A stretch of 64,000 bases of DNA, taken from NCBI RefSeq assembly GCF_019688735.1, contig NZ_JAIFYA010000002.1, positions 1 through 64,000 of the forward strand, in the 5' to 3' direction. The notes beneath the pieces were generated by a model. The model was given only the letters and a program-made list of their open reading frames with translations, ran no database searches and was not told where the DNA came from. A program made the position numbers and the translations under genes. The stretch comes from Thermosulfurimonas sp. F29 (GTDB lineage: Bacteria > Desulfobacterota > Thermodesulfobacteria > Thermodesulfobacteriales > Thermodesulfobacteriaceae). Positions 3,295-64,000 of the stretch are shown piece by piece. Numbering within the stretch: position 1 is the stretch's first letter; every line of letters starts with the position of its first letter.

Positions 3295-5367
<2,073 letters not shown>

Positions 5368-21703: not shown

Positions 21704-21727
21704 AAATAGTATATCCGTCTATTCCGG

Positions 21728-22709: not shown

Positions 22710-22710
22710 T
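22673..22710 (+). repeat. Direct repeat B, copy 1: 3' end of the ATPase gene
   Basis: This 38-bp sequence encodes GGVEAVPWWRL and the TAA stop of the ATPase pseudogene plus one base. It is identical to 23471-23508 in the same orientation, and the pair flanks vapBC. Confidence 0.97.
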
Positions 22711-23470: not shown

Positions 23471-23508
23471 CGGCGGGGTGGAGGCCGTGCCCTGGTGGCG
23501 GCTTTAAT
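23471..23508 (+). repeat. Direct repeat B, copy 2
   Basis: An identical 38-bp copy of the ATPase 3' end, with no ATPase body in front of it. Its last bases run into the stop codon of the convergent MFS gene (TAA on the minus strand at 23504-23506). Confidence 0.97.
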
Positions 23509-46772: not shown

Positions 46773-47359
46773 ATTTCTTTCCGTCCTTCTTCCTCAGGTC
46801 CGTAAACCTTTACCGGGTGAAAACGATAGCGGATTTCGTTGTCCGCAGCAATGGGTGGCCTTAATCCGACTTGTCATTTTGAATTTTTCTGATATATTCC
46901 CCTGCGAGCTTCTTCCGTAATCGGCCTCTATGGCCTGAGGGTAGGGAATAATTTAAATAGAAGATTTTTCGTAAAAGTTTGTTGTATGTGGAGAGAGCTT
47001 TTGACAGGTAAAAGGGTTCTTGTTACCGGCGCCTGCGGCACGGTGGGAAAGGCTCTGTAGAGAGCTTCGGAGTGGCCATAGATTTGCTGGATGATGACGA
47101 TTTTAGCATGAGGAGGGGATTGTAGGCTGGGCGTCTGTAGCGGGAATAAATTGTTGATTTAGTTTTGCAAAGATCTCGAAAAATTAATAACGCTATACCA
47201 ATAGTGGTGATGTTTAGTAAACTTTTGTTTTAGTTTGAGACAGATGTGTATTTTAGTGAACTGGTAAAGGCTAGTGCCACTTTCTTTATTCCCGAGACTC
47301 TCAGAATAGTTGTAACCAACAGCTTAAAGTTGGGAGATTAAGTGTTTTTGAGGTTATAA
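46773..47359. other. 587-base gap with decayed gene fragments at the island edge
   Basis: This interval has no intact gene. Apart from the epimerase-like fragment at 46986-47060, a short frame near 47265-47340 reads VKASATFFIPETLRIVVTNS, which may be another scrap. The composition falls from GC-rich to AT-rich along it. I see no terminator or riboswitch that I can support. Confidence 0.6.
46986..47060 (+). pseudogene. N-terminal stub of a nucleotide-sugar epimerase/dehydratase
   Basis: ATG at 46986 opens MWRELLTGKRVLVTGACGTV, then GKAL and a stop. VLVTGACGTVGKAL is the first strand and the glycine-rich NAD-binding loop of extended short-chain dehydrogenases such as UDP-GlcNAc 4,6-dehydratase. 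The rest of the gene is gone. Confidence 0.6.
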
Positions 47360-48658
47360 GTGTTAGGTAGAATGGTAAGAGAGTTTCTTCAAAACAAGGA
47401 TAAAAAACAGTTATTTGAAAACTTTATATCTCTTTCGTTACTTCAAGGAGTAAATTATATTCTTCCTTTGATTACTTTGCCATATTTAGTTAGGGTCTTG
47501 GGTCCGGAAAAGTTTGGTCTCATAGCTTTCTCTCGGGCCTTTGTGCAGTATTTTAATGTCTTGACAGATTATGGCTTTAATCTTTCTGCTACCAGAGAGA
47601 TCTCGATATATCGGGAAAGCAAGGAGCGAATTTCTGAAATCTTCAGTGCTGTAATGATTATTAAATTGATTCTGTTAATTTTTTCTCTTGTGATATTGAC
47701 TATTATTGTTTTTAGTTTTCAAAAATTTCTAAGAGATTGGGAAATATATTACTTGAGTTTTGGAATGGTAGTGGGGCAAGTTTTATTTCCTGTATGGTTT
47801 TTTCAGGGGATGGAAAGAATGAAGTACATTACTTTTTTGAATTTGATGGCTAGATTGTTGTTTACTATATCTATTTTTATTTTTATACGAAAAGTTTCTG
47901 ATTATATATATGTTCCGCTATTAAATTCGGTTGGCATTATATCGGCCGGCCTTCTTGGAATATGGGTAGCTTTTAAAAAATTTCCTATTTATTTAAAAAT
48001 ACCTTCTTGGACCGAAGTAAAGCATCAATTAAAAGAAGGGGGATATATTTTTATTTCACGAATAAGTATAAGTTTTTACACCATTTCAAATGTGTTTTTT
48101 TTAGGACTATTGACCAATAATACTATTGTTGGAATTTATTCTGCCGCCGAAAGGTTAATTAATGCTATAAAAGCATTTAATAACGTGATACTCCAAGTAA
48201 TGTTTCCTTTTATTTCGAAAGTTGCTAAAGAATCTCCTTCCAAAACTCTTAAGATAGTGAATGAGGAATTAAAGATTTTTTTAACACTAGAGCTTGCTTT
48301 ATGTGTTTTTATATATCTATTCTCTTATAAAATTGTTTTAATCTTCTTGGGTAAAAATTTTATAGACTCTGCTCCAATCATTCGCATTCTGATCTTTACT
48401 GTTCCTTTGATTCTTGCTTCTGCTGTTATTGGGCAGCAAATTTTGTTGAATTTTAATTTAAAAAGGCTTTTTACGACGAGTATTGTATATGTTTCTCTCT
48501 TTCATTTAGTGCTTCTTCCTATTTTTATACATTTTATGGAGGGTATAGGAGCTGCAATAGTTGTTTTAATAACTGAGTGTGCTATTGTTCTGTTTAGAAT
48601 TGTTGGCCTTTATAAAGCAGATCGGAAATTATTTGCTTTACTCAGAAGAGCTTATTAA
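47360..48658 (+). CDS. Wzx-type polysaccharide flippase
   Basis: The 432-residue protein has about 12 to 14 membrane segments and the RfbX/PST family start (SLLQGVNYILPLITLPYLVR, then VLGPEKFGLIAF). It turns lipid-linked repeat units over to the outside of the inner membrane. The GTG at 47360 has a GAGGT ribosome site; the ATG at 47372 is an alternative. The gene is strongly AT-rich, unlike the housekeeping regions. Confidence 0.9.
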   Translation: MLGRMVREFLQNKDKKQLFENFISLSLLQGVNYILPLITLPYLVRVLGPEKFGLIAFSRAFVQYFNVLTDYGFNLSATREISIYRESKERISEIFSAVMIIKLILLIFSLVILTIIVFSFQKFLRDWEIYYLSFGMVVGQVLFPVWFFQGMERMKYITFLNLMARLLFTISIFIFIRKVSDYIYVPLLNSVGIISAGLLGIWVAFKKFPIYLKIPSWTEVKHQLKEGGYIFISRISISFYTISNVFFLGLLTNNTIVGIYSAAERLINAIKAFNNVILQVMFPFISKVAKESPSKTLKIVNEELKIFLTLELALCVFIYLFSYKIVLIFLGKNFIDSAPIIRILIFTVPLILASAVIGQQILLNFNLKRLFTTSIVYVSLFHLVLLPIFIHFMEGIGAAIVVLITECAIVLFRIVGLYKADRKLFALLRRAY

Positions 48659-48660
48659 TT

Positions 48661-49566
48661 ATGATTAAACTGCCGAATTTTCTAATAGTTGGAGCAGCTA
48701 AATCTGGAACTACATCTTTATATTATTACTTAAAAGAGCATCCTGAAATTTTTTTGCCAGATAAGAAAGAGTTGAGGTTTTTTTCTCAAATGAGAGGTGA
48801 TTTTAGAGGTCCGGGAGATGAAAATCTAAATAGAACAATTGTTAAAGATATTAACGATTATATGAAGTTTTTTGAAACTGTGAAAATGGAGAAGGCAGTC
48901 GGAGACATATCACCTGATTATTTATACTATTTTAGAAACTCCATTAAAAACATAAAAAAATTTTTGGGAGATCCGAAAATTATTATTATTTTAAGAAATC
49001 CTATCGAAAGAGCCTATTCCCATTATTTGTATTTTTTGAGAGATGGTAGAGAATATCTTTCTTTTGAAGAAGCTTTATCTCAAGAAGAAAGGCGGAATTT
49101 GCTTAATTGGGAATGGGCTTGGTTTTATAAAGATGTTGGTTTTTATTATAATCAAGTTAAAGCGTATTTAGAAAATTTTTCAGAAGTAAAGATTTATTTG
49201 TATGATGATTTGAAAAAAGATCCCTTAAAGTTAGTGCAAGATATTTATAAATTTTTAGAAGTTAATGATTCATTTGTTCCTAAAAGTATAAATGAAAAAT
49301 TTAATATATCTGGAGTTCCTAAAAATAAATTTTTGCATAAACTTTTAGTTCAACCAAATCCTATAATCTTCCCCATCAAATTTGTGCTCAAAAGTATGTT
49401 ACCCAGAGATACAAGACAAAGATTACGAAACAAATTTTTACAAAAAATTCTTAAAAAACCTCAAATGAAACCAGAAACTAGAGAATATTTGAAGCAATTA
49501 TATAAAGAAGATATTTTAAAACTTCAAGAGTTAATAAAAAGAGATTTATCTCACTGGTTGAAGTAA
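48661..49566 (+). CDS. Sulfotransferase
   Basis: The 301-residue protein has the 5'-phosphosulfate binding loop AAKSGTTSLYYYL near the start and the 3'-phosphate motif IIILRNPIERAYSHY, both diagnostic of PAPS-dependent sulfotransferases. It would sulfate a sugar in the polymer. It starts 2 bases after the flippase gene and ends 1 base before glf, so it is in the same operon. Confidence 0.9.
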   Translation: MIKLPNFLIVGAAKSGTTSLYYYLKEHPEIFLPDKKELRFFSQMRGDFRGPGDENLNRTIVKDINDYMKFFETVKMEKAVGDISPDYLYYFRNSIKNIKKFLGDPKIIIILRNPIERAYSHYLYFLRDGREYLSFEEALSQEERRNLLNWEWAWFYKDVGFYYNQVKAYLENFSEVKIYLYDDLKKDPLKLVQDIYKFLEVNDSFVPKSINEKFNISGVPKNKFLHKLLVQPNPIIFPIKFVLKSMLPRDTRQRLRNKFLQKILKKPQMKPETREYLKQLYKEDILKLQELIKRDLSHWLK

Positions 49567-49567
49567 A

Positions 49568-50716
49568 ATGTTTAACTATATTATAGTTGGATCTGGCTTT
49601 GCTGGCAGTGTTCTCGCTGAAAGGATAGCGAATATTTTAAACAAAAAAGTGCTGGTAATAGAAAAAAGGAACCATATCGGTGGTAATTGTTACGATTATA
49701 GAGATAAGACCGGAATAATTGTACACAAATATGGCCCCCATATATTCCATACAAATTATAAGGAAGTCTGGGATTATGTGTCCAATTTTACAGATTGGCG
49801 TATTTATTATCACAAGGTTTTGGCTTTCGTAGATGGCCAAAAAATCCCGATACCGTTTAATTTAAATTCAATTTATCAGATTTTTTCTCCATCTTTAGCT
49901 AATAAGTTAGAGCAAAAACTTTTGAATAAATATAAGTATGGCTCAAAGATTCCGATTTTGGAATTAAAAAAAACTGAAGATCAAGATTTAAAATTTTTAG
50001 CAAATTATATCTACAATAAAGTCTTTCTAAATTATACTCTCAAACAATGGGGCAAGAGGCCAGAAGAGCTCGATCCAGAAGTGACAGCCAGAGTACCTAT
50101 TGTTATAAGTAAAGAAGAGAGATACTTTCAGGAAAAGTATCAGGGTGTACCTGAAGAGGGTTATACACAGATTTTCCAGAAGATGTTAAGTCATCCCAAT
50201 ATAAAAATTCTGTTGAATACAGATTTTCGGGAACTCATAAGACTCGATTGGAAATTTCGGAAGATATATTTTATGGGGCAAGAATTCAAGGGATTATTGA
50301 TATTTACGGGTATGATAGATGAATTATTTGATTACAAATTTGGGATATTACCTTATCGCTCTTTGGATCTTCATTTCGAAATAATCGAAAAAGAATATTT
50401 TCAAGAAGTAGCTGTAGTGAATTATCCCAACGATTATGATTTCACAAGGATAACGGAATTTAAACACATACATCCTATCAAGACCAATAAGACGGTCATT
50501 CTTAAAGAGTTCCCGAAAGATTATGATCCGGAGCGAGATATTCCCTATTATCCATTTTTCGATAAAGCAGCTCGGGAGGTCTATGCTAAATATCAAGAAC
50601 TTGCCGAGAGATTTGACCATCTTATTCTTGTAGGACGATTGGCAGAATATAGGTACTATGATATGGATGATGTTATAATAAGAAGTTTAGAGGTATTTGA
50701 AGAAAGAATCAGGTAA
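49568..50716 (+). CDS. glf: UDP-galactopyranose mutase
   Basis: The 382-residue flavoenzyme converts UDP-galactopyranose to UDP-galactofuranose. It has the FAD-binding IIVGSGFAGSVLAERIA and VIEKRNHIGGNCYD, and the family motif HKYGPHIFHTN. Its presence means that galactofuranose is available for the polymer. Full length. Confidence 0.96.
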   Translation: MFNYIIVGSGFAGSVLAERIANILNKKVLVIEKRNHIGGNCYDYRDKTGIIVHKYGPHIFHTNYKEVWDYVSNFTDWRIYYHKVLAFVDGQKIPIPFNLNSIYQIFSPSLANKLEQKLLNKYKYGSKIPILELKKTEDQDLKFLANYIYNKVFLNYTLKQWGKRPEELDPEVTARVPIVISKEERYFQEKYQGVPEEGYTQIFQKMLSHPNIKILLNTDFRELIRLDWKFRKIYFMGQEFKGLLIFTGMIDELFDYKFGILPYRSLDLHFEIIEKEYFQEVAVVNYPNDYDFTRITEFKHIHPIKTNKTVILKEFPKDYDPERDIPYYPFFDKAAREVYAKYQELAERFDHLILVGRLAEYRYYDMDDVIIRSLEVFEERIR

Positions 50717-50719
50717 AAA

Positions 50720-51682
50720 ATGGCCAGTGCAAAAGATACTGTTTGCGCAGTGGTTGTTACCTACAACCGTAAGGTTTTGCTTATTGAATGTCTTGAGGCT
50801 TTGTGCAAACAGACTAGGCCGGTACAGGGAATTTATTTAATAGACAATGCTTCTACGGATGGTACCCCTGACTTGCTTCTGGAGAAGGGGTATATAAAAG
50901 AATTACCTCCTGAGAATTTGTTAGAGCCTTGGGAGAAAGAATTCGAGATAAAAAACTTAACTGATGGGCAGCATATAAAATTCTACTATGTTCGAATGCA
51001 TGAAAATACCGGTGGTGCTGGTGGTTTTCATGAGGGTGTAAAAAGGGCTTACGAAAGAGGCTATGACTGGTTATGGTTGATGGATGATGATGTTGAGCCC
51101 TTGCCAAAGGCGTTGGAGACTCAATTGTCATATGCAGAGATTTCTAAATGTATTCATCCGTCTAGAAAATATGTAGATGGCAGTAGAGTTTTGTGGGAAG
51201 TGTATTTGGATCCTAAGAGTTCTAAAGAGATTTTTTTGAAAGACAGATCTTTTAAAGAAAAAAATTTAAATTATTGTTTAGTAAATGTTGGATGTTTCGA
51301 AGGGATGTTGATTCATCGAGATATTGTTGCTAGGATAGGTTATCCTGATAAAAGCTTTTTTATTTCAAAAGATGATACTATTTATGGTTTTTTGGCAAGT
51401 AAATTTACGAAGAATATTTATATTAGAGATATATGTTTTATTAAAAAGGTTAAAAAACTAAATAAACTTTCCGGGAAATCTTTATATTATTTTGTCAGGA
51501 ATAGGTTTATTTTATGTTTATATTTAAAAAGAGAAGGATATTTCACTTGTAAGTCTTATTTTTGGATTTTTTATAAGGTTTTCAGAATGTTGGTGTTCAA
51601 TTTTGTAAAATTAGATTTAAAAAGTTGTTATTTTATCTTGAAAGGTTTGTCTAACGGTTTGAAATTTGTTTTAAAATCTTGA
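50720..51682 (+). CDS. GT2 glycosyltransferase, galactofuranosyltransferase-like
   Basis: The 320-residue enzyme has a GT-A fold: CAVVVTYNRKVLLIECLEAL, DNASTDGTPDLL, then HENTGGAGGFHEGVKRA and WLMDDDVEP, the metal-binding DDD. The NTGGAGGFxxG and DDDV features resemble GlfT-type galactofuranosyltransferases, and it directly follows glf. The acceptor is unknown. AT content rises along the gene. Confidence 0.85.
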   Translation: MASAKDTVCAVVVTYNRKVLLIECLEALCKQTRPVQGIYLIDNASTDGTPDLLLEKGYIKELPPENLLEPWEKEFEIKNLTDGQHIKFYYVRMHENTGGAGGFHEGVKRAYERGYDWLWLMDDDVEPLPKALETQLSYAEISKCIHPSRKYVDGSRVLWEVYLDPKSSKEIFLKDRSFKEKNLNYCLVNVGCFEGMLIHRDIVARIGYPDKSFFISKDDTIYGFLASKFTKNIYIRDICFIKKVKKLNKLSGKSLYYFVRNRFILCLYLKREGYFTCKSYFWIFYKVFRMLVFNFVKLDLKSCYFILKGLSNGLKFVLKS

Positions 51683-51709
51683 GTTTTTATTTTATAAAGT
51701 GCTTTAAAA

Positions 51710-52927
51710 ATGCTTCCTAAAATAGCTGTTGTAATTTCTAGTTTGATATTAATTTTGTTATCTTTTTATCCGTTAGCTTTTATAAGATTTTATATTGTCA
51801 TTAGGACACTTTTTCAGCCTTTTGCGAATAAGCATTTGACGTTGTTTGGGAATTTTCCTATTAATGCCCCATTGCCTTTAATTTTGTTGTTTTATTCGTA
51901 TTTGGCGTGTATTTTTAGGCAAGATTTTTCTTTATTTGTTCCTAATTCTGTATATCTTTATTTATTCCTTTTTTGGAGTCTGCTTTCTTTGATAAATTCT
52001 TTTAATTTATACGCTTCATTTGCTTTCATTTTTAAAATCTTAGCTGTAATTTCCGTTTACTTATTAGTTTATAATTCAATAGAATCCGCTGAAGATTTCA
52101 AGAAGATTCATAAGACAGTAGTGTTTTTAGCCTTAATAACTATATTCTATGGTTTTTGTCAAATTTTTTTAAAAGAAGGACAACCATTCTATGGACCTAT
52201 AGTAAGAATTAAAAGTTTTTTTTCTAGTGCCAATGAATTTGGTATTTTTCTTTCTCTAGCAATAATTTCAAATTTAATATTAGTAGCCATAGAAGGATTT
52301 GAAAAACAATATAAGATTTTCTTAAGCTTAATGATATTAGCCTATATTTTGGCTTTAAATCGTGGATCATGGATAGCTATGACTACTTCTATATTTTTGT
52401 CATATTTCTTTTTTAGGGATAAAATAAGATTAAGAAGTATTGTTTTACCTATTGCTATAATTTTTTTAATATTTTCTCCAATTATAATATTGCGATTTCT
52501 TCAATTGGAAAATCCTGCAGAAAATACCTTTGTAGGCCGTATAAATTTCTGGAAAAATATGCTATATTTAATACTGCAACATCCTCTTTTAGGCTTTGGA
52601 ATTGGAACTACTGAGTTAGTATTTCAGTCTCTAACTGGACGAAAAATATATCCTCACAATGATTTTTTAAGATTATTTTTTGAAATTGGATTCGGGAGTA
52701 TTTTTTATATCCTCTTTTTAATTAAATCTTTGTTGTTTTTTATTAAAAATAAAGCTAATAATTGGAAAACAAACTTTTTGTTTATTGTATCTCTTTTTTA
52801 TTGGCTAATTATTAGTATTCCCCAAAATATTGTTAATAATGTAGTATTATTTCCTTTATTTATGACTTTAATTGCTTCGGGATTAAAATATAACTTTTTA
52901 ATAAATTTTGAGGGAAAACACATGTAA
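51710..52927 (+). CDS. O-antigen ligase/polymerase-family membrane protein
   Basis: The 405-residue protein has about ten to twelve membrane segments and the Wzy_C/WaaL region with a large outer loop (ILQHPLLGFGIGTTELVFQS, then KIYPHNDFLRLFFEIGFGS). It is the best candidate for the repeat-unit polymerase or ligase. The PHNDFLRLFFEIG motif is typical of the family. Confidence 0.85.
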   Translation: MLPKIAVVISSLILILLSFYPLAFIRFYIVIRTLFQPFANKHLTLFGNFPINAPLPLILLFYSYLACIFRQDFSLFVPNSVYLYLFLFWSLLSLINSFNLYASFAFIFKILAVISVYLLVYNSIESAEDFKKIHKTVVFLALITIFYGFCQIFLKEGQPFYGPIVRIKSFFSSANEFGIFLSLAIISNLILVAIEGFEKQYKIFLSLMILAYILALNRGSWIAMTTSIFLSYFFFRDKIRLRSIVLPIAIIFLIFSPIIILRFLQLENPAENTFVGRINFWKNMLYLILQHPLLGFGIGTTELVFQSLTGRKIYPHNDFLRLFFEIGFGSIFYILFLIKSLLFFIKNKANNWKTNFLFIVSLFYWLIISIPQNIVNNVVLFPLFMTLIASGLKYNFLINFEGKHM

Positions 52928-53207
52928 ATTACTATGATTGAATGTAAACTTTATTATTTTTATAGTCCTCATTTAATATAAATCTATGAAGGATTTTATC
53001 GTTTAAAAGAGACTCATTAAGTTGAGTGTGTTTGGATAAAAATATTACAAAACGGTGGGATTGTCAAACAGTTTTTAGTGTTTATATGTAAGTTTAGGTA
53101 TATAGATGAAGCTTTTTTCTGATAAAACTATGTTTTTGGAGGGTGCTTAAATTTTAGTTTTGACCTTTTTCAAAGGTCTCTGAAAGATAAATAATTGGTA
53201 ATCTAAG

Positions 53208-54236
53208 ATGGAATTGCAAAAAACAAATAAAGTAGTTTATATTGTTGGAAATAGTAGAAGTGGTACTACTTTGATGAGTAAAATATTAGGAAATCATCCT
53301 TTGATCTATTCTTTTGAAGAATTACATTTTTTTGAAAGATTATATAATCCCGATTCTAAAAAATTTCTTAATGAGTCTTCTATTCTTGATTTATTAGCAG
53401 AACTTTTAAGATCATCGAGAGAGGGAATGTGGTTTAGAAATAAAAAGGATGAATATTATAGAGAAGCGCAAATTATATATCAAACATTTTTCCATGATAT
53501 AAAAGATATTTCTCCAATTGAAGTTTATAAATTTTTTCTTTATTATGAAACAAATAAAAACAAAAAAGAAATTCCTTGTGAACAAACTCCTAGGAATTTG
53601 TATTATCTTAAAGAAATATTCGAAAATTTCCCCGAGGCAAAGGTAATATATATGCTCAGAGATCCGAGGGCCATATTGTTATCACAAAAAAATAAATGGA
53701 AAATGAAATTTTTAGGGCATAGTAATATGCCTCTAAAAGAAGCTATACGTTCCTGGATAAATTATCATCCTTATACAATAAGTAAGCTCTGGAATTCAGC
53801 TTCCAAGGCTATTAAGCCTTTTTTGTCTCATCCAAACGTTTTAGTAGTAAAATTTGAAGAATTGGTAAATGATCCTTACAGAACAATTAAAAAAATATGT
53901 GATTTTTTGGAAGTAGAATTTTATAATGAAATGTTAGATGTTCATTTGGCCGGATCTTCTGTTTATAAAAAGGGTAAAAAAGGTTTCAGAAAAGAGGTGA
54001 TAAATGTTTGGAAAAATAAAGGATTAAATAAAACAGAAATATATATATGTCAAAAGATTAATATAAAAGAAATGGAATTTTGGGGATATAATCTGGAAAA
54101 AGTTAAGCCTAATCTTTTACTATTGTTTTATTATTTTTTAAATTTTCCTTTTAAAACTTTAGGAACTTTGTTATTTAATTTAAAAAGATTTAGAAATATA
54201 TTTAAAGCTATAAAACGACGTTTGTTATTTTTATGA
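53208..54236 (+). CDS. Sulfotransferase
   Basis: This 342-residue protein is a second PAPS-dependent sulfotransferase of a different subgroup: VYIVGNSRSGTTLMSKILGN holds the 5'-phosphosulfate loop and VIYMLRDPRAILLSQ the 3'-phosphate site. About 280 AT-rich bases before it hold no gene that I can see. It overlaps the acyltransferase start by 4 bases. Confidence 0.88.
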   Translation: MELQKTNKVVYIVGNSRSGTTLMSKILGNHPLIYSFEELHFFERLYNPDSKKFLNESSILDLLAELLRSSREGMWFRNKKDEYYREAQIIYQTFFHDIKDISPIEVYKFFLYYETNKNKKEIPCEQTPRNLYYLKEIFENFPEAKVIYMLRDPRAILLSQKNKWKMKFLGHSNMPLKEAIRSWINYHPYTISKLWNSASKAIKPFLSHPNVLVVKFEELVNDPYRTIKKICDFLEVEFYNEMLDVHLAGSSVYKKGKKGFRKEVINVWKNKGLNKTEIYICQKINIKEMEFWGYNLEKVKPNLLLLFYYFLNFPFKTLGTLLFNLKRFRNIFKAIKRRLLFL

Positions 54237-55276
54237 AAAAGAGAGAAATATATATAGATATAGCTAAAGGGATAGGAATTTTATTGGTAGTCTATGGACA
54301 TGTGTTGGCTAGATTTCAAGATGCTAATTTTTATTATTCTTGTTTGGTAATTCAAAATAAAATAATTTTTTCCTTTGTTATGCCTCTTTTTTTCATTATA
54401 TCGGCATATTTTCAAAGGGTTAGATTGGAAAAAGAAAAATTTGATCATATAAAATATCTTCAAAAAATTTCAAGTTCTCTTTTGGTGCCTTTTTATACTT
54501 TATCTTTTTTGTTTCTTCCGTTTAGTTATATCATTTACTTGACAGGTAATCAAAATTTAGGAGTTAATTTTGCTAATTTAAAAGAAATGCTTTTTGCCTT
54601 GTTTTTTCAGCAATCTAATACAAAATATTTGCCTTCTGGAGTATTATGGTTTTTATTTACTCTTTTTAGTTATCATTTTTTCTCATATTTATGGATCAGG
54701 ATTTTTAAATTTCGAGCAATATTTTTAGTAGTAATAGGAATTATTTTGAAAATTTTTTATCCATTTTTTCAAAATACTTACTGGCTTGGATTTAACAAGT
54801 TCTGTCAATTTTTTATTTTTTATGCTATTAGTTATGTCTTTGCTCATAAAGTTTATTTTACCGAAGATATTTTTATTAGTTGGTTATCTTTAATTTTTAG
54901 CTTTCTTATTTATCTAATTTTAATTTTTGAAGATAAAAACAATTTTCTGCTTCAATATGTTAGTTTTTTAGGGACAACAGGAATACTTGGTTCTTTTATA
55001 GTGATAAGATTTTCTTATTTGTTCAATTCGAAGTTAAAAACGAATTTAATTGTTAAAATTTTAAGCTTTTTTGGTAAGAACTCTATGGCTATATATGTAT
55101 TTCATGCTCCTACTTTTGTGATTTGTAAATTTTTTATTCTTTTATTGAACATTTCTAATATTTTGATAAAAATATTTTTTATTTTTGTTCCAAGCGTAAT
55201 TTTACCTTTAGTATATGCTAAAATTTTAAGTTTTTATAGGCCTGCCTATAAATTACTTTTAGGCCGCAATCCTTAG
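54233..55276 (+). CDS. Acyltransferase family 3 membrane protein
   Basis: The 347-residue protein has about ten membrane segments and the catalytic first helix DIAKGIGILLVVYGHVL with its conserved His, as in OafA/NodX-type sugar O-acyltransferases. It would acetylate or otherwise acylate the polymer. Very AT-rich. Confidence 0.87.
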   Translation: MKKREIYIDIAKGIGILLVVYGHVLARFQDANFYYSCLVIQNKIIFSFVMPLFFIISAYFQRVRLEKEKFDHIKYLQKISSSLLVPFYTLSFLFLPFSYIIYLTGNQNLGVNFANLKEMLFALFFQQSNTKYLPSGVLWFLFTLFSYHFFSYLWIRIFKFRAIFLVVIGIILKIFYPFFQNTYWLGFNKFCQFFIFYAISYVFAHKVYFTEDIFISWLSLIFSFLIYLILIFEDKNNFLLQYVSFLGTTGILGSFIVIRFSYLFNSKLKTNLIVKILSFFGKNSMAIYVFHAPTFVICKFFILLLNISNILIKIFFIFVPSVILPLVYAKILSFYRPAYKLLLGRNP

Positions 55277-55293
55277 TATGTTTAAAGTAAATT

Positions 55294-56499
55294 ATGAAAG
55301 TTCTTATAGCTAATAAATTTTTTTGGCTTAAAGGCGGCTCAGAAAAGGTTCTTTTTCAGGAAAGAGAATTTTTGATAAATAATGGAATAAAAGTAATAGA
55401 TTTTTCCATGCACGATCCCAGAAATTTTCCTTCTGAATATTCTTCTTATTTTGTCTCGCACATTGACTATCACGGTGCAAATGGATTCCAGACCAAACTG
55501 AAAAACGCCTTCAAGTTCATACACTCGCCGGAGGCGGTGCGGAAGATCAGGGCTTTGATCCAAAAGGAAAAGCCGGACACTGCGCACCTTCACAATATTT
55601 ATCATCAGCTCACCCCTTCCATTATTCATACGCTTAAGGAACACGGGGTGAAGGTTGTGTTGACCTTGCATGATGGCAAACTTATTTGCCCTACCTATCT
55701 TATGCTTGACAGAGATTTAAAGTCCTGCCTTGAATGTCAAGGGAGGCATTTCTATAAGCCTTTCTTCAAAAATTGTGCTAATTCGAGACTTCAAAGCTTT
55801 CTTTTGATGGTGGAGGCTTACTGGCATAAATTTTTCAAATCCTATGACAAAGTAGATCTCTTTATTTCTCCCAGCCGGTTTCTGGCGGAAGTGGTGGCGA
55901 TGCGGGTTCCGCGGGAGAAGATTGTAGTTTTACGAAACGGGATAGACCTTAATGAATACAGGCCTCCTTATGAGGATGAGGAATATGCCCTTTACTTCGG
56001 AAGACTTTCCCGAGAAAAAGGAGTGGAGACGCTGCTTAAGGCTCACTGGGAGGTGGCGGGAGAGATTCCCCTTAAGATAGTCGGAACCGGGCCGATAGAG
56101 GCTGAACTCAGGACGAAATATCCGGAGGCGGAGTTTTTGGGTTATCGGACAGGGGAGGAGCTCAAGTCGCTTGTGGCCCGGGCTTCCTTTGTGGTGGTGC
56201 CCTCGGAATGTTACGAAAACTGTCCTATGACTGTGCTTGAGGCCATGGCATTGGGGAAACCCATTATTGCAAGCCGCATCGGGGGGCTTCCGGAGCTCGT
56301 GGAGGAGGGTAAAACGGGGCTTCTTTTCGAGGCCGGAAATGGAGAGGAGCTTAAGGAGAAGATGCTTTTCTTGTGGAAAGATAGGGAGTTGCGATATGAG
56401 ATGGGGCGTGCGGCCCGGGAGAAGGCAGAACGGGAGTTTTCCCTGAAAAAACACTGTGAGGAACTCTTACGAATATATCGAGGGCTTCTTGAGAATTGA
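55294..56499 (+). CDS. GT4-family glycosyltransferase, mosaic composition
   Basis: The 401-residue retaining glycosyltransferase has ANKFFWLKGGSEKVLFQE at the start, the TAHLHNIYHQLTP region, GRLSREKGVETLLKAH, and the donor-site ECYENCPMTVLEAMALGKPI with its EX7E. The first about 150 bases are AT-rich like the preceding gene, and the remainder is near 50-55% GC. The boundary near 55450 suggests recombination inside the gene. Confidence 0.92.
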   Translation: MKVLIANKFFWLKGGSEKVLFQEREFLINNGIKVIDFSMHDPRNFPSEYSSYFVSHIDYHGANGFQTKLKNAFKFIHSPEAVRKIRALIQKEKPDTAHLHNIYHQLTPSIIHTLKEHGVKVVLTLHDGKLICPTYLMLDRDLKSCLECQGRHFYKPFFKNCANSRLQSFLLMVEAYWHKFFKSYDKVDLFISPSRFLAEVVAMRVPREKIVVLRNGIDLNEYRPPYEDEEYALYFGRLSREKGVETLLKAHWEVAGEIPLKIVGTGPIEAELRTKYPEAEFLGYRTGEELKSLVARASFVVVPSECYENCPMTVLEAMALGKPIIASRIGGLPELVEEGKTGLLFEAGNGEELKEKMLFLWKDRELRYEMGRAAREKAEREFSLKKHCEELLRIYRGLLEN

Positions 56500-56502
56500 C
56501 CG

Positions 56503-58593
56503 ATGAAAATTTTCTTAGGTGTTATTTCTTTCCTTTTCATTTTCTTGCTTTCGTCTCTTCCGGCGCAGCCGGTAGCGGAGATTACCGTCAACTTTGAGGA
56601 AGTGGGGATAGTTAACCCTTATGTTTTTGGTCAGGGCATTTTGGGCTTTGACCGTTGTTTGATTGTAAAAAAGAAAAAAAAGTTTTGTGTAAATGACGGG
56701 CGATTTACTAATTTTGGAGCAGGGGTCTGGGATCCGCTTTTGAGGAGGCCCGATCCGGTTCTGGTGGATCTCGCTAAAAAAATAAAAGTCTCCGTTTTGC
56801 GGTTTCCGGGTGGGTGTGGCACTCATCACTACGACTGGAAAAAGGCTATCGGCCCGGTCGAAAAGCGGCCCATGTATAAATTCGGCATAGACGAGTTCAT
56901 GAAGCTCTGTCGGGCGGTAGGAGCTAAACCTATTATTGTGTTGAGCTATTTCACCGGGACCTGTCAGGACCTGGCGGACCTGGTGGAGTATCTGAACGCC
57001 CCCCTCGGGACCAACCCCAACGGCGGAGTGGCCTGGGCGGAGGTACGGGCCGCCAATGGGCACCCGGAGCCTTACGGAGTTAAGTGGTTTGAGTTTGGAA
57101 ATGAAGTGTGGCATGGGGATCATAGGAAAATTTCCGCTGTAGATCCAAGAGAATATGGAGAACGGTATCTTGAATGTCAAAAGTTAATTAAAAACATTGA
57201 TCCTAAGATTGAACTCGGAGCAGTAATGAGAAGAAGTTTATATGGATTAGGCTGGTGGAGTCGAGCTGTTCTTTCTGTAATTAAAAAAAATGTTGATTTT
57301 GTAATTTTTCATATCTATCCTCCTGGTTATCGATCTGATAGAAATGAAATATCTACTAATGAACTTTTTAAAATAGCTTTGGCTGCTCCTGAGCAAATTA
57401 GCGATTCTCTTTTTAGGATTTCTAAACAATTAAAAGAAATTACTAGGAGAGAGATTCCGATTGCTATTACCGAATATAATGGTGGTTTTGTACAAAAGAG
57501 GCCGGTGCCATACAGGCATTCTCTAGGAAATGCTCTTCTAATTGCAGATCTTTTAAGAGTATTTTTGTTGCATGGAACATCTATTCTTTGTGCAAATTAC
57601 TGGCATTTCTCTAATTCTTATTGGGGTCTGGTTTACAACCCGAACTACATGAGGGGACAAGGTAGATATTACAAAAGGCCTAACTATTATGTTTTTTATC
57701 TTTATGCCAATCATTTTGGAGATATTTTATTAAAAACCCAAGTAAAGTCAAAGAGTTATTTTCAATCTGGATATAAAAATATTTTACCTTCTATAAAAGC
57801 TAAAAAAGTATCTTCTCAAAATTTGGATCTTCTAGATACTGAAACTTTTAGAGAAAAAGTTTTGAAAATTGATTTTAAATGGCTTCCTCCGTGTGTTAGA
57901 ATGAAAAAATATTTTGATTATTCGGTAATTCATTTTGATTGCGAAAAACATAATAAGTTAGGAATCTTTTTTATTGAAAAAATTCAAAATGTTAAACCTA
58001 ATTGGTTATATTTTTGGGAAGCCGAAATAAAAACAAACTTGGAAAAAGCATGGTTTTTTATAGAAATTAAAGATCAAAGGTATAGACGCATTAAACATTC
58101 AAAGATTTTATGGGGAAATACAGAGTGGATAAAAATCGGCTTTGATTTTAAAACTCCCGATAATATTAAAATTTTAAATTTGCTGTTTTTTATCAAAGGA
58201 AAAGAAAATAAAGGAATTAAGGGAACAGTCTATATTAAAAATATGAAAATTGGGGACCTTGGCCCCGCCCCGCAATACGGGCCGACGCCATATATTTCGG
58301 CCCTGGCGAGCACCAACGAGAAGAGGGATCGGATATACCTTATGGTGATCAACAAAAACCTGGAAGAGTCCATGAGGACGCGGATAAAAATCAATGGCTT
58401 TCCCTTTGAGCCCGTGGTTCGGGCCTGGGTGCTGAACGGCCCTTCGGTGGCCGCCACCAATGAAAATAGGCGGGAAAGGGTTAAAATACATTACCGTGAG
58501 ATTAGGGTGGCTCCTGAGGAGGGGGCCTTCTATTTCACCTTCGAGCCGCATTCGGTAACGGCCCTAGAGTTAACGCGCAGGGAGGGAACTTGA
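56503..58593 (+). CDS. Secreted GH51-like glycoside hydrolase, mosaic composition
   Basis: The 696-residue protein begins with a signal peptide (IFLGVISFLFIFLLSSLPAQ) and a clan A TIM barrel of the alpha-L-arabinofuranosidase type. The acid/base Glu is in EFGNEVWHGD (E201), and the nucleophile is in IPIAITEYNGGF (E324). A beta-rich, CBM-like region lies about 460-585 (FEATURES such as NWLYFWEAEIKTNLEKAWFF) and a C-terminal sandwich follows. It may trim furanosidic linkages (Araf or Galf) of the polymer. Bases 56503 to about 57090 and 58250 to the end are GC-rich; the middle is AT-rich. Confidence 0.82.
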   Translation: MKIFLGVISFLFIFLLSSLPAQPVAEITVNFEEVGIVNPYVFGQGILGFDRCLIVKKKKKFCVNDGRFTNFGAGVWDPLLRRPDPVLVDLAKKIKVSVLRFPGGCGTHHYDWKKAIGPVEKRPMYKFGIDEFMKLCRAVGAKPIIVLSYFTGTCQDLADLVEYLNAPLGTNPNGGVAWAEVRAANGHPEPYGVKWFEFGNEVWHGDHRKISAVDPREYGERYLECQKLIKNIDPKIELGAVMRRSLYGLGWWSRAVLSVIKKNVDFVIFHIYPPGYRSDRNEISTNELFKIALAAPEQISDSLFRISKQLKEITRREIPIAITEYNGGFVQKRPVPYRHSLGNALLIADLLRVFLLHGTSILCANYWHFSNSYWGLVYNPNYMRGQGRYYKRPNYYVFYLYANHFGDILLKTQVKSKSYFQSGYKNILPSIKAKKVSSQNLDLLDTETFREKVLKIDFKWLPPCVRMKKYFDYSVIHFDCEKHNKLGIFFIEKIQNVKPNWLYFWEAEIKTNLEKAWFFIEIKDQRYRRIKHSKILWGNTEWIKIGFDFKTPDNIKILNLLFFIKGKENKGIKGTVYIKNMKIGDLGPAPQYGPTPYISALASTNEKRDRIYLMVINKNLEESMRTRIKINGFPFEPVVRAWVLNGPSVAATNENRRERVKIHYREIRVAPEEGAFYFTFEPHSVTALELTRREGT

Positions 58594-59999
58594 AGGATAG
58601 CTGTCTCGAGTTTGTTCGGAATCAAAAGATAACTCCCTCACACCTCAGGGAAACCATTTGCTTCCGGGGAAAGAAGCTGCCGAAGAGATTTTTTTATGAG
58701 GAATTGCAGAGGTATTTAAGCGAATTTCTCGAATCCGGCCGGGGGATAAGGATGGTGGCCCTGGCCGGACTGCGAGGAACCGGGAAGACCACCCTCCTCT
58801 GGCAACTGGCGGACTATCTCCTTCGAAACTTCAAGGAAAGAGCCGAAGCCTTCTTTATAAGCCTTGATGTGGCCTACAGTTATGGTTTTTCGGAAAAAGA
58901 TCTTATCGAAGGATTGCAAAAAATATACGAAGATTTGAAGTCTCAAAGGAAAACACCGGTGCTCTTTCTCGACGAGGTGCAGTATCTCCCCAACTGGCCT
59001 CTGATGCTAAAAGTGCTCTATGACAGGTTCAAAGACTGTTTTATTTTCGTAAGCGGAAGCTCAGCCCTTTATCTTCACTCCACGGTGGATCTGGCCACCC
59101 GGTGGATCCTGAGATCCCTTCTCCCTTTGAGTTTTCGCGAGTTTCTAATGATAAAGGCCTTCCTGGAATCTGGCTTTGAAGTTCCTTCCTTTTCCCGGGC
59201 GGAGGAGCTCAGGAAGACACTTTTCTTCTCCGAATCGCTTGAGGAGTTAAAGAAAGGCCTGAAACTCGTAGAAAAAGAGGTGCAGGAGTTTTATAAAGAA
59301 AAGCTTCCCTGGCAGGAGCTCATTCGGGAATACATTTTATTTCATAATCTCCCCCGTTTTATCCCGGTGGAGGAGGAGAAGGTTCTGGCTGATCAGACCT
59401 TCGACATGCTTCAAAGAGTAGTCTATCAGGATCTCCGGAATCTCTACCCGGAAAACGAGGTGGTGAGTGTCTTCAAGCTGCTTTCTCAGCTTGCGGCCAG
59501 CGACGAAATAAACCCGGAGAGGCTTTCGCAGGATCTGGGGGTTTCAAGAAAGCGGATAGAACGAATAATAAAAAGCTTGATAGAAGCGGAAGTCTTATTG
59601 GCCTTTCCTCCCTATGGAGGAACCAAAACCAGAGTTGCCCGGCACAGAAAGGTCTTTTTCCTTTCTCCGACCCTTAGATACGGAATCCTCAGACAGCTTT
59701 TTGCGGACCTTCGGTCTTTCTTTTCCAGGTTTCTGGAGGATACCGTGGCCCTCTCTCTGAGGCGACTCCTTCCCAACAGAGTGTTCTATCTACCTACCGG
59801 AACCCAGAAGACCCCGGATTTTGTGGTGGAAACCGCTCTTGCACCCGTGGTTTTGGAAGTGAGAACCGCTAAAAGGGATGTTTCCCAGCTCAAGCTTAAA
59901 AATATGCGTTACGGTATTCTCCTGAATTTTGATCTGGAGGTGCCGGAATTCAGGGATAAAGTAGTTATCTTTCCTTTCAAGTGGTTTTTGCTTATGTAG
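58590..59999 (+). CDS. AAA_14/DUF4143-type ATPase
   Basis: The 469-residue protein has a P-loop (VALAGLRGTGKTTLLWQLAD), Walker B (TPVLFLDEVQYLPNW), the family motif LLPLSFREFLMI, a winged-helix (SQDLGVSRKRIERIIKSLIE) and a C-terminal nuclease-like domain (TPDFVVETALAPVVLEVRTA). These ATPases are widespread in thermophiles and their role is not settled. It is intact, unlike the related pseudogene at 21921. The TTG start overlaps the previous stop. Bases 59127-59175 recur at 62924-62972. Confidence 0.85.
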   Translation: MKDSCLEFVRNQKITPSHLRETICFRGKKLPKRFFYEELQRYLSEFLESGRGIRMVALAGLRGTGKTTLLWQLADYLLRNFKERAEAFFISLDVAYSYGFSEKDLIEGLQKIYEDLKSQRKTPVLFLDEVQYLPNWPLMLKVLYDRFKDCFIFVSGSSALYLHSTVDLATRWILRSLLPLSFREFLMIKAFLESGFEVPSFSRAEELRKTLFFSESLEELKKGLKLVEKEVQEFYKEKLPWQELIREYILFHNLPRFIPVEEEKVLADQTFDMLQRVVYQDLRNLYPENEVVSVFKLLSQLAASDEINPERLSQDLGVSRKRIERIIKSLIEAEVLLAFPPYGGTKTRVARHRKVFFLSPTLRYGILRQLFADLRSFFSRFLEDTVALSLRRLLPNRVFYLPTGTQKTPDFVVETALAPVVLEVRTAKRDVSQLKLKNMRYGILLNFDLEVPEFRDKVVIFPFKWFLLM

Positions 60000-60029
60000 A
60001 TTTTTACCTTAACATAGGGGGGTCTGAGG

Positions 60030-61007
60030 ATGGAGGCGGCTATCATTTTGACCTATCGCTGTATCTGCAAATGCTACATGTGTAACATCTGGAAGTATCC
60101 CACAAAACCTTCGGAGGAAATAAAGCCTGAGGTGCTGGAGAAGCTTCCGGACAATCTGGCCTTCGTGAACCTCACCGGGGGCGAGCCCTTTTTGCGGGAA
60201 GACATAGAAGACATTGTGGACATTGTGATGCGCAAGTCTAAAAGAGTGGTCATAAGCACCAACGGGTGGTTTACGGAAAAGATCGTAAATATTGCCAGGA
60301 AGTATCCCAAAATAGGTATAAGGGTAAGCCTTGAGGGGCTTCCGGCGGCCAACGATGAGCTACGGGGTATAAAGGACGGCTTTGACCACGGCCTGCGGAC
60401 GCTCCTTGAGCTTCAGCGCATGGGCCTGAAGGACATAGGCTTCGGCATCACGGTCTCCGACCGGAACGCCAAAGACATGATAGAACTTTACCAGCTTGCC
60501 AAAAGTCTGGGGTTCGAATTCGCCACTGCGGTTACTCACAATTCCTATTATTTTCACAAACACGACAATGTTTTCAAGGATCAAAGAATGATCGAAGATT
60601 GCTTTCGGGAATTGATAAAGGAACTGCTCTGTACAAAGAGGGTAAAGAACTGGTTTAGAGCCTACTTCAATTACGGGCTTATCCGAAGGGTGAGGAGGCA
60701 ACCGCGACTTCTTCCTTGTGAGGCCGGGACGGAGAATTTCTTCGTAACCCCTTTCGGGGAAGTGGTTCCCTGCAATGGTTCTCCGGAACCGTGGGTCATG
60801 GGTAATCTGAATGAGCAGGACTGGGATGAGATCTGGAACGGTGAGCAGGCCCGGAAGGTTAGAGAAAAGGTCAAAAACTGTGATAGGCAGTGCTGGATGA
60901 TAGGGACCGCCGCCCCGGTGATGAAGAAATATATATGGAAGCCTCTAAAATGGGTGGTGAGGAACAAGCTGCGGGTGATGATGGGAAAGGAGCCCTGTCT
61001 GGACTGA
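60030..61007 (+). CDS. Radical SAM/SPASM-type protein
   Basis: The 325-residue protein has the cluster motif CICKCYMCNIW (CX3CX2C), FVNLTGGEPFLREDI, and a C-terminal auxiliary-cluster region with CEAGTENFFVTPFGEVVPCN and CDRQCW. It may modify a peptide or a sugar. It lies between the ATPase and a glycosyltransferase at the end of the polysaccharide island; the substrate is unknown. Confidence 0.85.
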   Translation: MEAAIILTYRCICKCYMCNIWKYPTKPSEEIKPEVLEKLPDNLAFVNLTGGEPFLREDIEDIVDIVMRKSKRVVISTNGWFTEKIVNIARKYPKIGIRVSLEGLPAANDELRGIKDGFDHGLRTLLELQRMGLKDIGFGITVSDRNAKDMIELYQLAKSLGFEFATAVTHNSYYFHKHDNVFKDQRMIEDCFRELIKELLCTKRVKNWFRAYFNYGLIRRVRRQPRLLPCEAGTENFFVTPFGEVVPCNGSPEPWVMGNLNEQDWDEIWNGEQARKVREKVKNCDRQCWMIGTAAPVMKKYIWKPLKWVVRNKLRVMMGKEPCLD

Positions 61008-61011
61008 TTCC

Positions 61012-62133
61012 ATGAGAATCGTCGTATGCGGAACGAGGGGATTCCCCGGTGTTCAGGGAGGGGTGGAGAAACATTGTCAGGAACTTTACCCCAGGCTGGT
61101 AAAGCTCGGGTGCGAGGTTCTGGTCTTCACTCGCACGCCGTATATCCCCAGGGACAACCGTCTTTTCGAATGGCGCGGAGTAAAGTTTTACCATTTGTGG
61201 TGTCCGCGGAGAAAATCCCTTGAGGCCATAACGCATACTCTGTTTGCCGTCTCTTTGGCGCGGAGATTTAAGCCGGATATCCTGCATATTCACGCCATCG
61301 GTCCGTGTCTGGTCGTACCTTTGGCGCGGGCTCTTGGGTTCAAGGTGGTGATGACCCACCACGGGCCGGACTATGAACGGGCCAAGTGGGGACGACTGGC
61401 CAGAAGGGCACTCAAGCAGGGCGAAAGCTGGGGCGTGAGGTACAGCCACCGGGTGATCGCCATCTCCCGGGGCATTCAGGAACATCTGAGAAGGCTTTAC
61501 GGGCTGGAGGCCGTGTTCATCCCCAATGGGGTGCACATTCCGGAGGCCGTTCCTCCCGGAGAAGGGCTTTCGCGATGGGGACTTGAGCCCGGAAGCTATG
61601 TCTTTACCGCCTGCCGCTTCGTGCCGGAAAAGGGTCTTCATGACCTGGTTGAGGCCTATCGGCGGCTTGAAAATCCGCCCTTCAAACTCGTGATAGCCGG
61701 AGACGCCGATCACGAAACACCTTACAGCCGGAGGCTCAAAGAACTGGCCGTCCGGACGCCGGGCGTGGTGCTCACGGGTTTTGTTTCCGGAAGGCCTCTT
61801 GCCGAACTTTTTTCAAACGCCGGGCTCTTTGTGCTTCCCTCTTATTACGAAGGCCTTCCCATCGCCCTTCTTGAGGCCCTGAGCTACGGGCTCCCGGTTC
61901 TCGTAAGTGACATTCCGCAGCATCGAGAGCTTCCTCTTCCTGATTTTCGCTATTTTCGGAAGGGAGACGTGGCTCACCTGGCACAAGCTATGGAAAGTCT
62001 TTTCCGCCGTGGGGTATCGTCTGAGGAGCGCAGGGAATATTTGGACCTCCTCCGCCGCGACTACGACTGGGACCGCATAGCCGAGCGGACGCTCGGGGTG
62101 TATCGGGAGGCCCAAGACTTTCGCACTTCGTAG
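61012..62133 (+). CDS. GT4-family glycosyltransferase
   Basis: The 373-residue enzyme starts RIVVCGTRGFPGVQGGVEKH, has DILHIHAIGPCLVVPLARAL, the ACRFVPEKGLHDLVEAYRRL core and SYYEGLPIALLEALSYGLPV at the donor site. It would add a sugar to the lipid-linked unit. It starts 4 bases after the radical SAM gene. Bases 62050-62102, near its 3' end, recur at 62971-63023. Confidence 0.92.
   Translation: MRIVVCGTRGFPGVQGGVEKHCQELYPRLVKLGCEVLVFTRTPYIPRDNRLFEWRGVKFYHLWCPRRKSLEAITHTLFAVSLARRFKPDILHIHAIGPCLVVPLARALGFKVVMTHHGPDYERAKWGRLARRALKQGESWGVRYSHRVIAISRGIQEHLRRLYGLEAVFIPNGVHIPEAVPPGEGLSRWGLEPGSYVFTACRFVPEKGLHDLVEAYRRLENPPFKLVIAGDADHETPYSRRLKELAVRTPGVVLTGFVSGRPLAELFSNAGLFVLPSYYEGLPIALLEALSYGLPVLVSDIPQHRELPLPDFRYFRKGDVAHLAQAMESLFRRGVSSEERREYLDLLRRDYDWDRIAERTLGVYREAQDFRTS
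62050..62102 (+). repeat. Direct repeat C, copy 1: 3' part of the glycosyltransferase gene
   Basis: These 53 bases encode RRDYDWDRIAERTLGV and end 31 bases before the stop. They match 62971-63023 with one mismatch in the same orientation, and the pair flanks the AbrB/VapC module. Confidence 0.92.
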
Positions 62134-62219
62134 GTGCAACAAGGGATCGGGGGATCTTTCCGGGGGTAAGCGGTGCGGCCTCGCGGAGCATGGGAAAAAG
62201 GATGGAGTGGATCCATGTA

Positions 62220-62253
62220 TTGATAGGTATGAATTCATGCTTAATAATTCATG
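62220..62253 (+). promoter_or_regulatory. Promoter and operator repeats of the AbrB/VapC module
   Basis: TTGATA (62220) and AATAAT (62243) are 17 bases apart. AATTCATG occurs twice (62232 and 62246) within the spacer and over the -10 box, a good position for antitoxin autoregulation. The ATG of the antitoxin follows at 62290. Confidence 0.5.
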
Positions 62254-62289
62254 TAAGTAGAAAGTAATTAGTGAAATGAGGAAAAGTTG

Positions 62290-62511
62290 ATGCGTGCGAA
62301 GGTTGCTGAACGGGGACAGGTGACGATACCGAAACCTTTGAGGGATCGGTTGGGAATTCGGCCCGGGACTATTTTGGAATTTAAGGAAGAAGCAGGGCGT
62401 TTGGTAGCCGTGAAAGTAGAGACTTTGGATCCTATAGATCAAATTTATGGTCAACTTGGTCGGGGAAGGCATACGGACGAGATCCTCCGTCAGTTAAGAG
62501 AAAATAAGTGA
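62290..62511 (+). CDS. AbrB/VapB-type antitoxin
   Basis: The 73-residue protein has the swapped-hairpin AbrB fold (AERGQVTIPKPLRDRLGIRP, GTILEFKEEAGRLV) and a C-terminal tail for toxin binding. The stop overlaps the GTG of the toxin frame by 4 bases. The ATG at 62290 is preferred to a TTG just before it. Confidence 0.87.
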   Translation: MRAKVAERGQVTIPKPLRDRLGIRPGTILEFKEEAGRLVAVKVETLDPIDQIYGQLGRGRHTDEILRQLRENK

Positions 62512-62914
62512 TTACAGCCGTTGATACCAATATTCTGATAGATATTTTGGAACCTGATCCCCTTTATGGGCCCGCCTCAAAAGAAGCTCTAAAAAAGTGC
62601 CTAAGAGAAGGAAAGATTGTAGCTTGTGAAGTTGTATGGGCCGAGGTGGCTGTGGTTTATGTCGAGGCGCAGGAAGCCCTTATAAATTAGAGAAGATAGG
62701 GCTTGAATTTTCACCTATTGCTCGGGAAGCCGCCTTAGTGGCGGCTAAATGCTGGGCTGAATATTTAAAAAGGGGGCCCAAGAAGAGAAGGATTGCGGCT
62801 GATTTTCTCATAGGAGCTCATGCCTTGGTTCAGTGTGATCGTTTGTTAACCAGAGATAAGGGATTTTATCGAGAGTATTTCAAAGGGCTTAAGGTTGTAT
62901 ATCCTGTTGATTGA
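62508..62914 (+). pseudogene. VapC-type PIN toxin with an internal frameshift
   Basis: GTG at 62508 begins with the catalytic VDTNILIDIL and continues to EAQEALIN and a stop at 62690. The remainder reads YKLEKIGLEFSPIAREAALV to 62914 in the -1 frame and contains the rest of the PIN fold (DFLIGAHALVQCDRLLTRDK). Adding one T near 62680 restores one reading frame of about 135 residues. The four acidic residues of the active site are present but split. The toxin is probably inactive. Confidence 0.8.
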
Positions 62915-62923
62915 AAGATGCCG

Positions 62924-63023
62924 TTGAGTTTTCGCGAGTTTCTAATGATAAAGGCCTTCCCGGAATCTGGCTCCGCCGCGACTACGACCGGGACCGCATA
63001 GCCGAGCGGACGCTCGGGGTGTA
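62924..63023 (+). repeat. Chimeric scar: copies of ATPase and glycosyltransferase segments
   Basis: Bases 62924-62972 match 59127-59175 of the ATPase gene in 48 of 49 positions. Bases 62971-63023 match 62050-62102 of the glycosyltransferase gene in 52 of 53. Both copies are in the original orientation and share a two-base CT at the junction. The fragments do not form a gene; the second half is direct repeat C copy 2. Confidence 0.93.
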
Positions 63024-63031
63024 CGGGGATG

Positions 63032-64000
63032 TCATCCCAGAAAACGGCGCAGATAAGCGGCCTCGAGGATTATGTCGGTAAGTCGGCCCGGATCGTTTCG
63101 TTTGAGACGCCTTATGATCCGGGAGGTGGCCTCCTGATGAGCCGTATCGGGTGTGCAGTCCAGGCTGAGAGTGTTCAGGAGATCCAGGGCCCTCAGTAAG
63201 GCCTTTCTGACCTCCTCGGGCAGAAGATCGAGGACCCGGGGGTTAAAGTATTGCATGGCCAGGGAAAAGTCCCTCTCCAGGTTGCGATAGAATCCCTTGA
63301 GCTCCTGAAGCTCCTCCCGGGATAACACATTGAGTCCAAGGAGTTCCGGGGGAAGCCCCATGGAATAACATGCCCCGCAGAAACCTATAGCCCGCGGAAG
63401 GGTCACCCGTCCCAGACTCCGGGAGTATCCGAAAAGACCCACATGGAGTTTTCGCATGCGACGGCGGGGTATATCCCGGGCCACCCGGTTGACCAGCGGA
63501 GCCAGGGGCTCAATCAGTCGCTGGTACTCCCGGGAGGTCTTCTCCACCAACTCCAGGGCCTTCGCCTCATCAAAATCTTCCAGAGGGTAGCGAATAAAGT
63601 TTTTTATCTTTTTGATGGCCTCTATAACATCCTCGATGGGATTATCGTATTTAAAGGCCGACTGAACCGTGAAGGTCTCCACGCAGGGATACTCCTGAAG
63701 GACCAGCTCCACTGTGTAGGGGGTAAGATTTCCCCGAAAGGGAGGGGACCCCACACCCAGGATGGGATGGATCTCGATTTCCAGTCTGGACGCGAGTCTT
63801 TCCAGCCGCTTCAGGGCGATCTTGTTCGCCAGCACCGCACTCACACTCCCGTAATTGAGGGCCGGATCGGAACGGGCCAGGAAGACCCTCTGGTGCACGA
63901 TCTCCTTATCGGCAAGGTACTTTTCCAGGATCTCATCCGCCCGAACCATGGAGGGAATGTCCTCAAAAAGGGGGATTACCTGGATCCTTTCCGGCAAAAA
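63032..64000 (-). CDS. Archaeal-type phosphoenolpyruvate carboxylase, partial
   Basis: The frame is open to the right edge of the window, so only about 322 C-terminal residues are seen; the family is about 500. Motifs include RSDPALNYGSVSAVLANKIA, HPILGVGSPPFRG, TVQSAFKYDNP and GLFGYSRSLGRVTLPRAIGF, which match the archaeal PEPC family (PF14010). It makes oxaloacetate from PEP and bicarbonate. This form is found mainly in archaea and a few bacteria. Its stop lies 8 bases from the recombination scar. Confidence 0.9.
   Translation of the reverse strand, partial: FLPERIQVIPLFEDIPSMVRADEILEKYLADKEIVHQRVFLARSDPALNYGSVSAVLANKIALKRLERLASRLEIEIHPILGVGSPPFRGNLTPYTVELVLQEYPCVETFTVQSAFKYDNPIEDVIEAIKKIKNFIRYPLEDFDEAKALELVEKTSREYQRLIEPLAPLVNRVARDIPRRRMRKLHVGLFGYSRSLGRVTLPRAIGFCGACYSMGLPPELLGLNVLSREELQELKGFYRNLERDFSLAMQYFNPRVLDLLPEEVRKALLRALDLLNTLSLDCTPDTAHQEATSRIIRRLKRNDPGRLTDIILEAAYLRRFLG

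Follow-up and report, generated by a model that had tools for sequence, protein, structure and literature searches.

The 100 bases at positions 62924-63023 of the window (the whole stretch of DNA that was analysed, 64,000 nucleotides from Thermosulfurimonas sp. F29) are composed of parts of two nearby genes. They probably represent the remains of a second, redundant copy of the segment running from an ATPase gene to a glycosyltransferase (GT) gene, located beyond a toxin-antitoxin (TA) module designated C, and a probability of about two in three is assigned to this reading together with the history of duplication and decay proposed below. The features concerned are the following:

58590-59999, plus strand: complete gene of an AAA_14/DUF4143-type ATPase, from which the first piece derives (PF13173, E 5.7e-26)
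61012-62133, plus strand: complete gene of a family 4 glycosyltransferase, from which the second piece derives (PF13439/PF00534)
62287-62508, plus strand: antitoxin gene of module C, MazE/AbrB type (PF04014, E 2e-9)
62508-62914, plus strand: PIN (VapC-like) toxin gene of module C (PF01850)
62921-62972, plus strand: remnant of the second ATPase copy (of 59124-59175), 50/52 identical, with a left junction common to T. dismutans contig 23
62970-62973, no strand: probable deletion join with CT microhomology, from source position 59175 to 62050, by direct reading
62971-63029, plus strand: remnant of the second GT copy (of 62050-62108), 56/59 identical, not in frame with the ATPase piece to which it is joined
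63032-64000, minus strand: 3′ part of a PEP carboxylase gene of archaeal type (PF14010, E 5e-108), where the genus synteny starts

Positions 62924-62972 copy the ATPase bases 59127-59175 with 48 of 49 identical, and the match can be stretched leftward to 62921; positions 62971-63029 copy the 3′-end of the GT gene, with an identity of 52/53 when 62971-63023 alone is considered. Both pieces lie on the plus strand, in the orientation of their sources, and overlap only by CT; the two alignments thus confirm the two-gene chimera, with order and orientation kept, that had been described in the initial annotation, and its placement beside a third TA module is fair, a MazE/AbrB-type antitoxin and a PIN toxin being found at 62287-62914. 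The raw alignment scores are 46 for the ATPase piece and 50 for the GT piece, against a best value of 15 in 100 dinucleotide shuffles, which rules out a chance match; across the 2.35-Mb genome no other source was found for either piece, which also rules out a third locus. The ATPase piece is joined out of frame to the GT piece, therefore no chimeric protein is implied and a functional chimeric gene is ruled out. The GT match extends as far as 63029, shortly before the codon (63032-63034) that terminates the convergent PEP carboxylase gene.

One other genome carries the module C locus, that of Thermosulfurimonas dismutans S95 (G008), which is assigned to another genus than the genome of the window and was obtained by 454 sequencing (PMC4911364). 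Over window 55272-62967 its contig 23 runs colinearly, with 90% identity, and, directly after the same TA module, it contains an ATPase copy of about 740 bp corresponding to 59124-59518 and 59619-59965, i.e., to 59124-59965 less about 100 bp; this is followed by a GT copy starting at about 61943 and running for at least 118 bp to the edge of the contig. The two genomes have an identical junction, GATTGAAAGATGCC/GTTGAG, where the TA module passes into the ATPase copy, and the second ATPase copy of T. dismutans displays stops and frameshifts throughout; the PIN gene of module C, frameshifted in the window, is intact there. T. dismutans thus holds a longer, decaying copy with the same left junction, and the 100 bases of the window can therefore be read as the residue of a longer second copy. 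The join between ATPase and GT sequence differs, being from 59175 to 62050 in the window and from 59965 to about 61943 in T. dismutans, as expected from separate or successive deletions. The T. dismutans contig stops inside the GT copy, the right boundary lying beyond it, and a search for a continuation of this copy on another contig gave no match. Over 13 comparable bp, the GT copy of each genome resembles the GT gene of the same genome, and identity along the second copy is uneven (86-97%); these two features would need later gene conversion, recombination or a partly independent history.

Recurrence of the left junction in an independently sequenced genome makes an assembly artefact, which the initial annotation had put forward as grounds for dismissing the stretch, very unlikely. 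The same comparison bears on the mechanism originally suggested, a one-step template switch during replication or repair that copied 49 ATPase and 59 GT bases into this spot. Two colinear pieces meeting at a 2-bp microhomology fit such an event; however, it is contradicted by the longer chimera of T. dismutans, which combines the same two genes and shares the left junction but has another internal join, and an independent origin at the same left base in both genomes is implausible, so that a template switch retains hardly any probability.

The scar is carried by a polysaccharide block (window 47326-62967) with a per-segment identity to T. dismutans of 78-92%, locally up to 98%, whereas an 18-kb core region of the two genomes is only 71-74% identical. 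This difference points to a transfer of the block between the two genera; the scar would have moved with it and would thus be older than the transfer. Just to the right of the scar, from the PEP carboxylase stop codon (63032) onwards, the window is syntenic with four genomes of its own genus, and its PEP carboxylase has no match in T. dismutans. These borders could also reflect recombination between two versions of the polysaccharide locus at the time of horizontal transfer, leaving the end of the old version in place and with the TA module as a passenger of the incoming one. The contrast between 90% identity in the block and 71-74% in core genes, the beginning of own-genus synteny at the stop of PEP carboxylase, and the unevenness of identity within the copy, suggestive of allelic mixing, would all agree with such an exchange. 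T. dismutans, however, has the TA-to-ATPase junction too; this junction is therefore older than the last transfer and arose elsewhere than at the present site. Recombination between locus versions is accordingly improbable.

The hint in the initial annotation that fragments of this kind may adjoin TA modules proved fruitful, as bracketing repeats were found at other TA modules. In an 80-kb self-comparison (the window plus 16 kb), non-tandem repeat pairs with E up to 1e-3 occurred only around modules A, B and C, the pair at module C being formed by the GT piece and, with it, the scar's ATPase piece. The features of modules A and B are:

21084-21146, plus strand: left copy of the 63-bp repeat of module A, 86% identity
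21170-21550, minus strand: module A gene, HVO_A0114-type helix-turn-helix, probably antitoxin-like (PF25212, E 2e-21)
21725-21787, plus strand: right copy of the 63-bp repeat of module A, from self-comparison
22673-22710, plus strand: left copy of the 38-bp repeat of module B, 3′-end of an AAA_14 ATPase pseudogene, 100% identical to 23471-23508
22779-23429, plus strand: TA module B, ribbon-helix-helix antitoxin and PIN toxin (PF01402, PF01850)
23471-23508, plus strand: right copy of the 38-bp repeat of module B, overlapping the stop of a convergent MFS gene, where synteny with relatives starts

In modules B (PF01402, PF01850) and C (PF04014, PF01850) a gene for a PIN-domain toxin comes immediately after the antitoxin gene; by gene content they are predicted type II TA modules, in which inhibition of growth by the toxin and neutralisation by the antitoxin are expected. 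In both, a convergent gene has its stop next to or within the right repeat copy. The fragmented AAA_14-type ATPase pseudogene adjoining module B occupies window 21921-22709, and AAA_14/DUF4143-type ATPases are thus found at both B, as a pseudogene, and C, as the source of the scar.

A PIN toxin search of the whole genome returned 18 loci, of which 16 were retained, the other two being a PIN protein with a long frame and an integron cassette. Direct repeats (E < 1e-5) bracket 5 of these 16 PIN TA loci, as compared with 0.7% of random windows in a 400-kb sample of the same genome, chosen by position and not by content; the binomial probability is 8e-8, or 3e-6 if two neighbouring loci are taken as one, the control being random windows of one genome. 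Modules B and C were already known when the test was devised; with both omitted and the cluster counted once, 2 of 14 loci are bracketed (P 0.004). Among eight related genomes, 6 of 24 TA-like PIN loci are bracketed (binomial 2e-8), or 5/23 when the T. dismutans locus is omitted, these P values being approximate because the random rate derives from the window's genome alone. Two candidates were left out of the count, L074/L076, which is an integron-like attC array, and L122, whose repeats are of low complexity and not gene copies.

The 400-kb sample, which is independent of the 80 kb, contained five dispersed repeat pairs, of which two surround ParE-type TA modules and one a tRNA-end integrase island. 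The other two bracket inserts of another kind, namely 2-hydroxyglutaryl-CoA dehydratase genes between identical 73-bp repeats (L095:1319-3735) and a small membrane ORF of 62 aa between identical 57-bp repeats (L104:8519-8990), which shows that TA modules are not the only inserts with long duplications.

The repeats are copies of the neighbouring genes and differ in length from case to case: 63 bp at A, 38 bp at B, 205 bp at an rfbA-type gene, 181 bp at an AIR-synthase-family gene and 69 bp at cas6, with further cases in relatives and a decayed one at C. Indeed, an AbrB-PIN module lies between the rfbA-type nucleotidyltransferase gene and a 91% identical copy of its 3′-end, and a ParE module between the AIR-synthase-family gene (L093, identified to family level) and a 97% identical copy of its end, while the cas6 repeats, copies of the cas6 end, are identical and enclose a ParE-type module. 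In some cases the right copy ends a few bases before the stop codon of the gene, which a simple target duplication does not predict.

One comparison with an empty site comes from a related genome (G005), in which a complete dus-like gene and a partial copy of its start enclose a PIN module; at the same place in the sister species (G002), the upstream gene is followed directly by the dus-like gene, in a single copy. Positions 1-1239 of G005 align to 1421-2659 of G002, and 1871-3060 to 2543-3732, with an overlap of 117 bp in G002; according to these alignments, the PIN module of G005 was inserted and about 109-117 bp of the target were duplicated. Other loci compare less simply: at module B the ATPase is absent in relatives, at the AIR-synthase-family gene of G000 the native right neighbour differs, and a locus of G010 with 75-bp repeats has a multi-copy repeat inside the insert and no clean empty site. 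For module C, present in the window and in T. dismutans, no empty site is known, and the GT gene was found in no other genome.

Two further arrangements were observed. In L085 (G000:C2:612001-623000), several TA-like modules, separated by repeats of 175-302 bp with up to 99.7% identity, form a cluster between a flippase-like gene and an oligosaccharyltransferase-like gene, which suggests repeated insertions; in T. dismutans (L130, G008:C14 near 62566), a PIN module lies between two 50-bp copies resembling the 3′ part of a tRNA gene.

In the history proposed for the scar, the arrival of module C at the locus would have placed it between two copies of the ATPase-GT segment (about 3 kb, 59124-62108). 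The second copy, beside the module and under no selection, would then have eroded: in the lineage of the window a deletion with CT microhomology may have fused the ATPase copy to the GT copy, and the T. dismutans lineage would have lost other pieces, the polysaccharide block with the scar subsequently moving between genera. The same order, orientation and left junction would be produced by a tandem duplication extending from ATPase position 59124 to the TA end, after which deletions removed the second TA module and most of the second copies, the TA module having no causal role; decay by deletion is visible in both genomes. The initial annotation had stated that one tandem duplication alone does not account for the stretch, and we agree. 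An extra deletion is needed, removing the second TA module precisely up to the PEP carboxylase end, and the occurrence of repeats around TA modules in particular, as well as the G005/G002 empty site, is left unexplained. A tandem duplication is thus unlikely, though it keeps some weight. For module C, insertion with a long target duplication is favoured over tandem duplication with loss of the second TA module because of the TA bracketing pattern and the G005/G002 empty site; the choice is not settled, and module C needs a duplication of about 3 kb, larger than in the other cases.

The bracketing repeats are taken as a sign that TA modules often insert with long target duplications in this bacterium and its relatives. 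Candidates for the physical mechanism would be repair of a widely staggered break around the incoming DNA and homology-facilitated illegitimate recombination. The latter occurs in natural transformation, where one homologous anchor and one microhomology joint can bring in foreign DNA and duplicate the target.

Insertion with long target duplications of variable length, of the order of 100 bp, has been described for restriction-modification (R-M) genes (Nobusato et al. 2000, as cited in PMC1643837, PMC3031569 and PMC3874152), and PMC3874152 treats R-M and TA systems together, the long-duplication insertion being reported for R-M systems. The cases found here share with it a small addiction-type unit, devoid of its own transposase, placed between direct copies of the target; copies of variable length (38-205 bp in the simple cases); and, for the PIN module of G005, a single copy at the empty site of a related genome (G002). 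They differ in that the earlier reports concern R-M genes, chiefly in Helicobacter, whereas the present inserts are PIN and ParE TA modules in Thermodesulfobacteria, and in that module C would need an unusually long duplication; the inserts are type II TA modules and not R-M systems, hence the likeness is one of pattern, not of gene type. For vapBC in Sulfolobus, flanking degenerate IS copies have been reported instead (PMC3718332).

For TA modules, long target duplications were not found described in the open-access literature that was searched, and the claim of novelty is limited to that literature. The pattern bears on the way in which chromosomal TA modules spread in the absence of transposases and integrases. 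A tentative proposal, somewhat less probable than not, is that stand-alone TA modules in Thermodesulfobacteria are minimal, transposase-free mobile units that duplicate a long, variable stretch of their target, the scar being an insertion fossil. Should the pattern survive a wider survey, it would extend the R-M pattern to TA modules, with one mode of insertion for both; bracketing repeats would then represent a computable signature to date and count TA insertions, and the scar shows how fast such duplications erode.

Other mobile systems resemble these loci in part. Integrative elements at tRNA genes or other gene 3′-ends, with the att repeats of tyrosine recombinases, also have direct gene-end repeats flanking the insert, and the genome contains a classical one (L091), in which tRNA-end repeats surround integrase-like and IS genes. 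Unlike them, the TA inserts are about 0.6-0.9 kb long, with neither a recombinase gene nor a common att sequence. An IS element or transposon is rejected, modules B and C having no transposase and the repeats varying between 38 and 205 bp.

In integron attC cassettes, too, TA genes are mobile and lie between repeats about 60 bp long; however, attC sites are palindromic and alike across cassettes, whereas at A, B and C the repeats consist of ordinary coding sequence, differ in each case and are devoid of CTAACAA/GTTAG-like palindromes, so that these modules were rejected as attC cassettes. Such palindromes do occur in an array downstream of rplQ (L083, G000:C1:54001-63000), where five imperfect palindromes of 58-64 bp with CTAACAA...GTTAG ends, at 256, 1305, 3445, 3898 and 4612, separate small genes (YafQ-type toxin, HicB, PIN), forming an integron-like attC cassette array; similar repeats are found in T. 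dismutans contig 17, in G005 and beside rplQ in G002. Finally, the window contains a tandem repeat with a 54-bp period at 5566-5818, inside or beside coding sequence.
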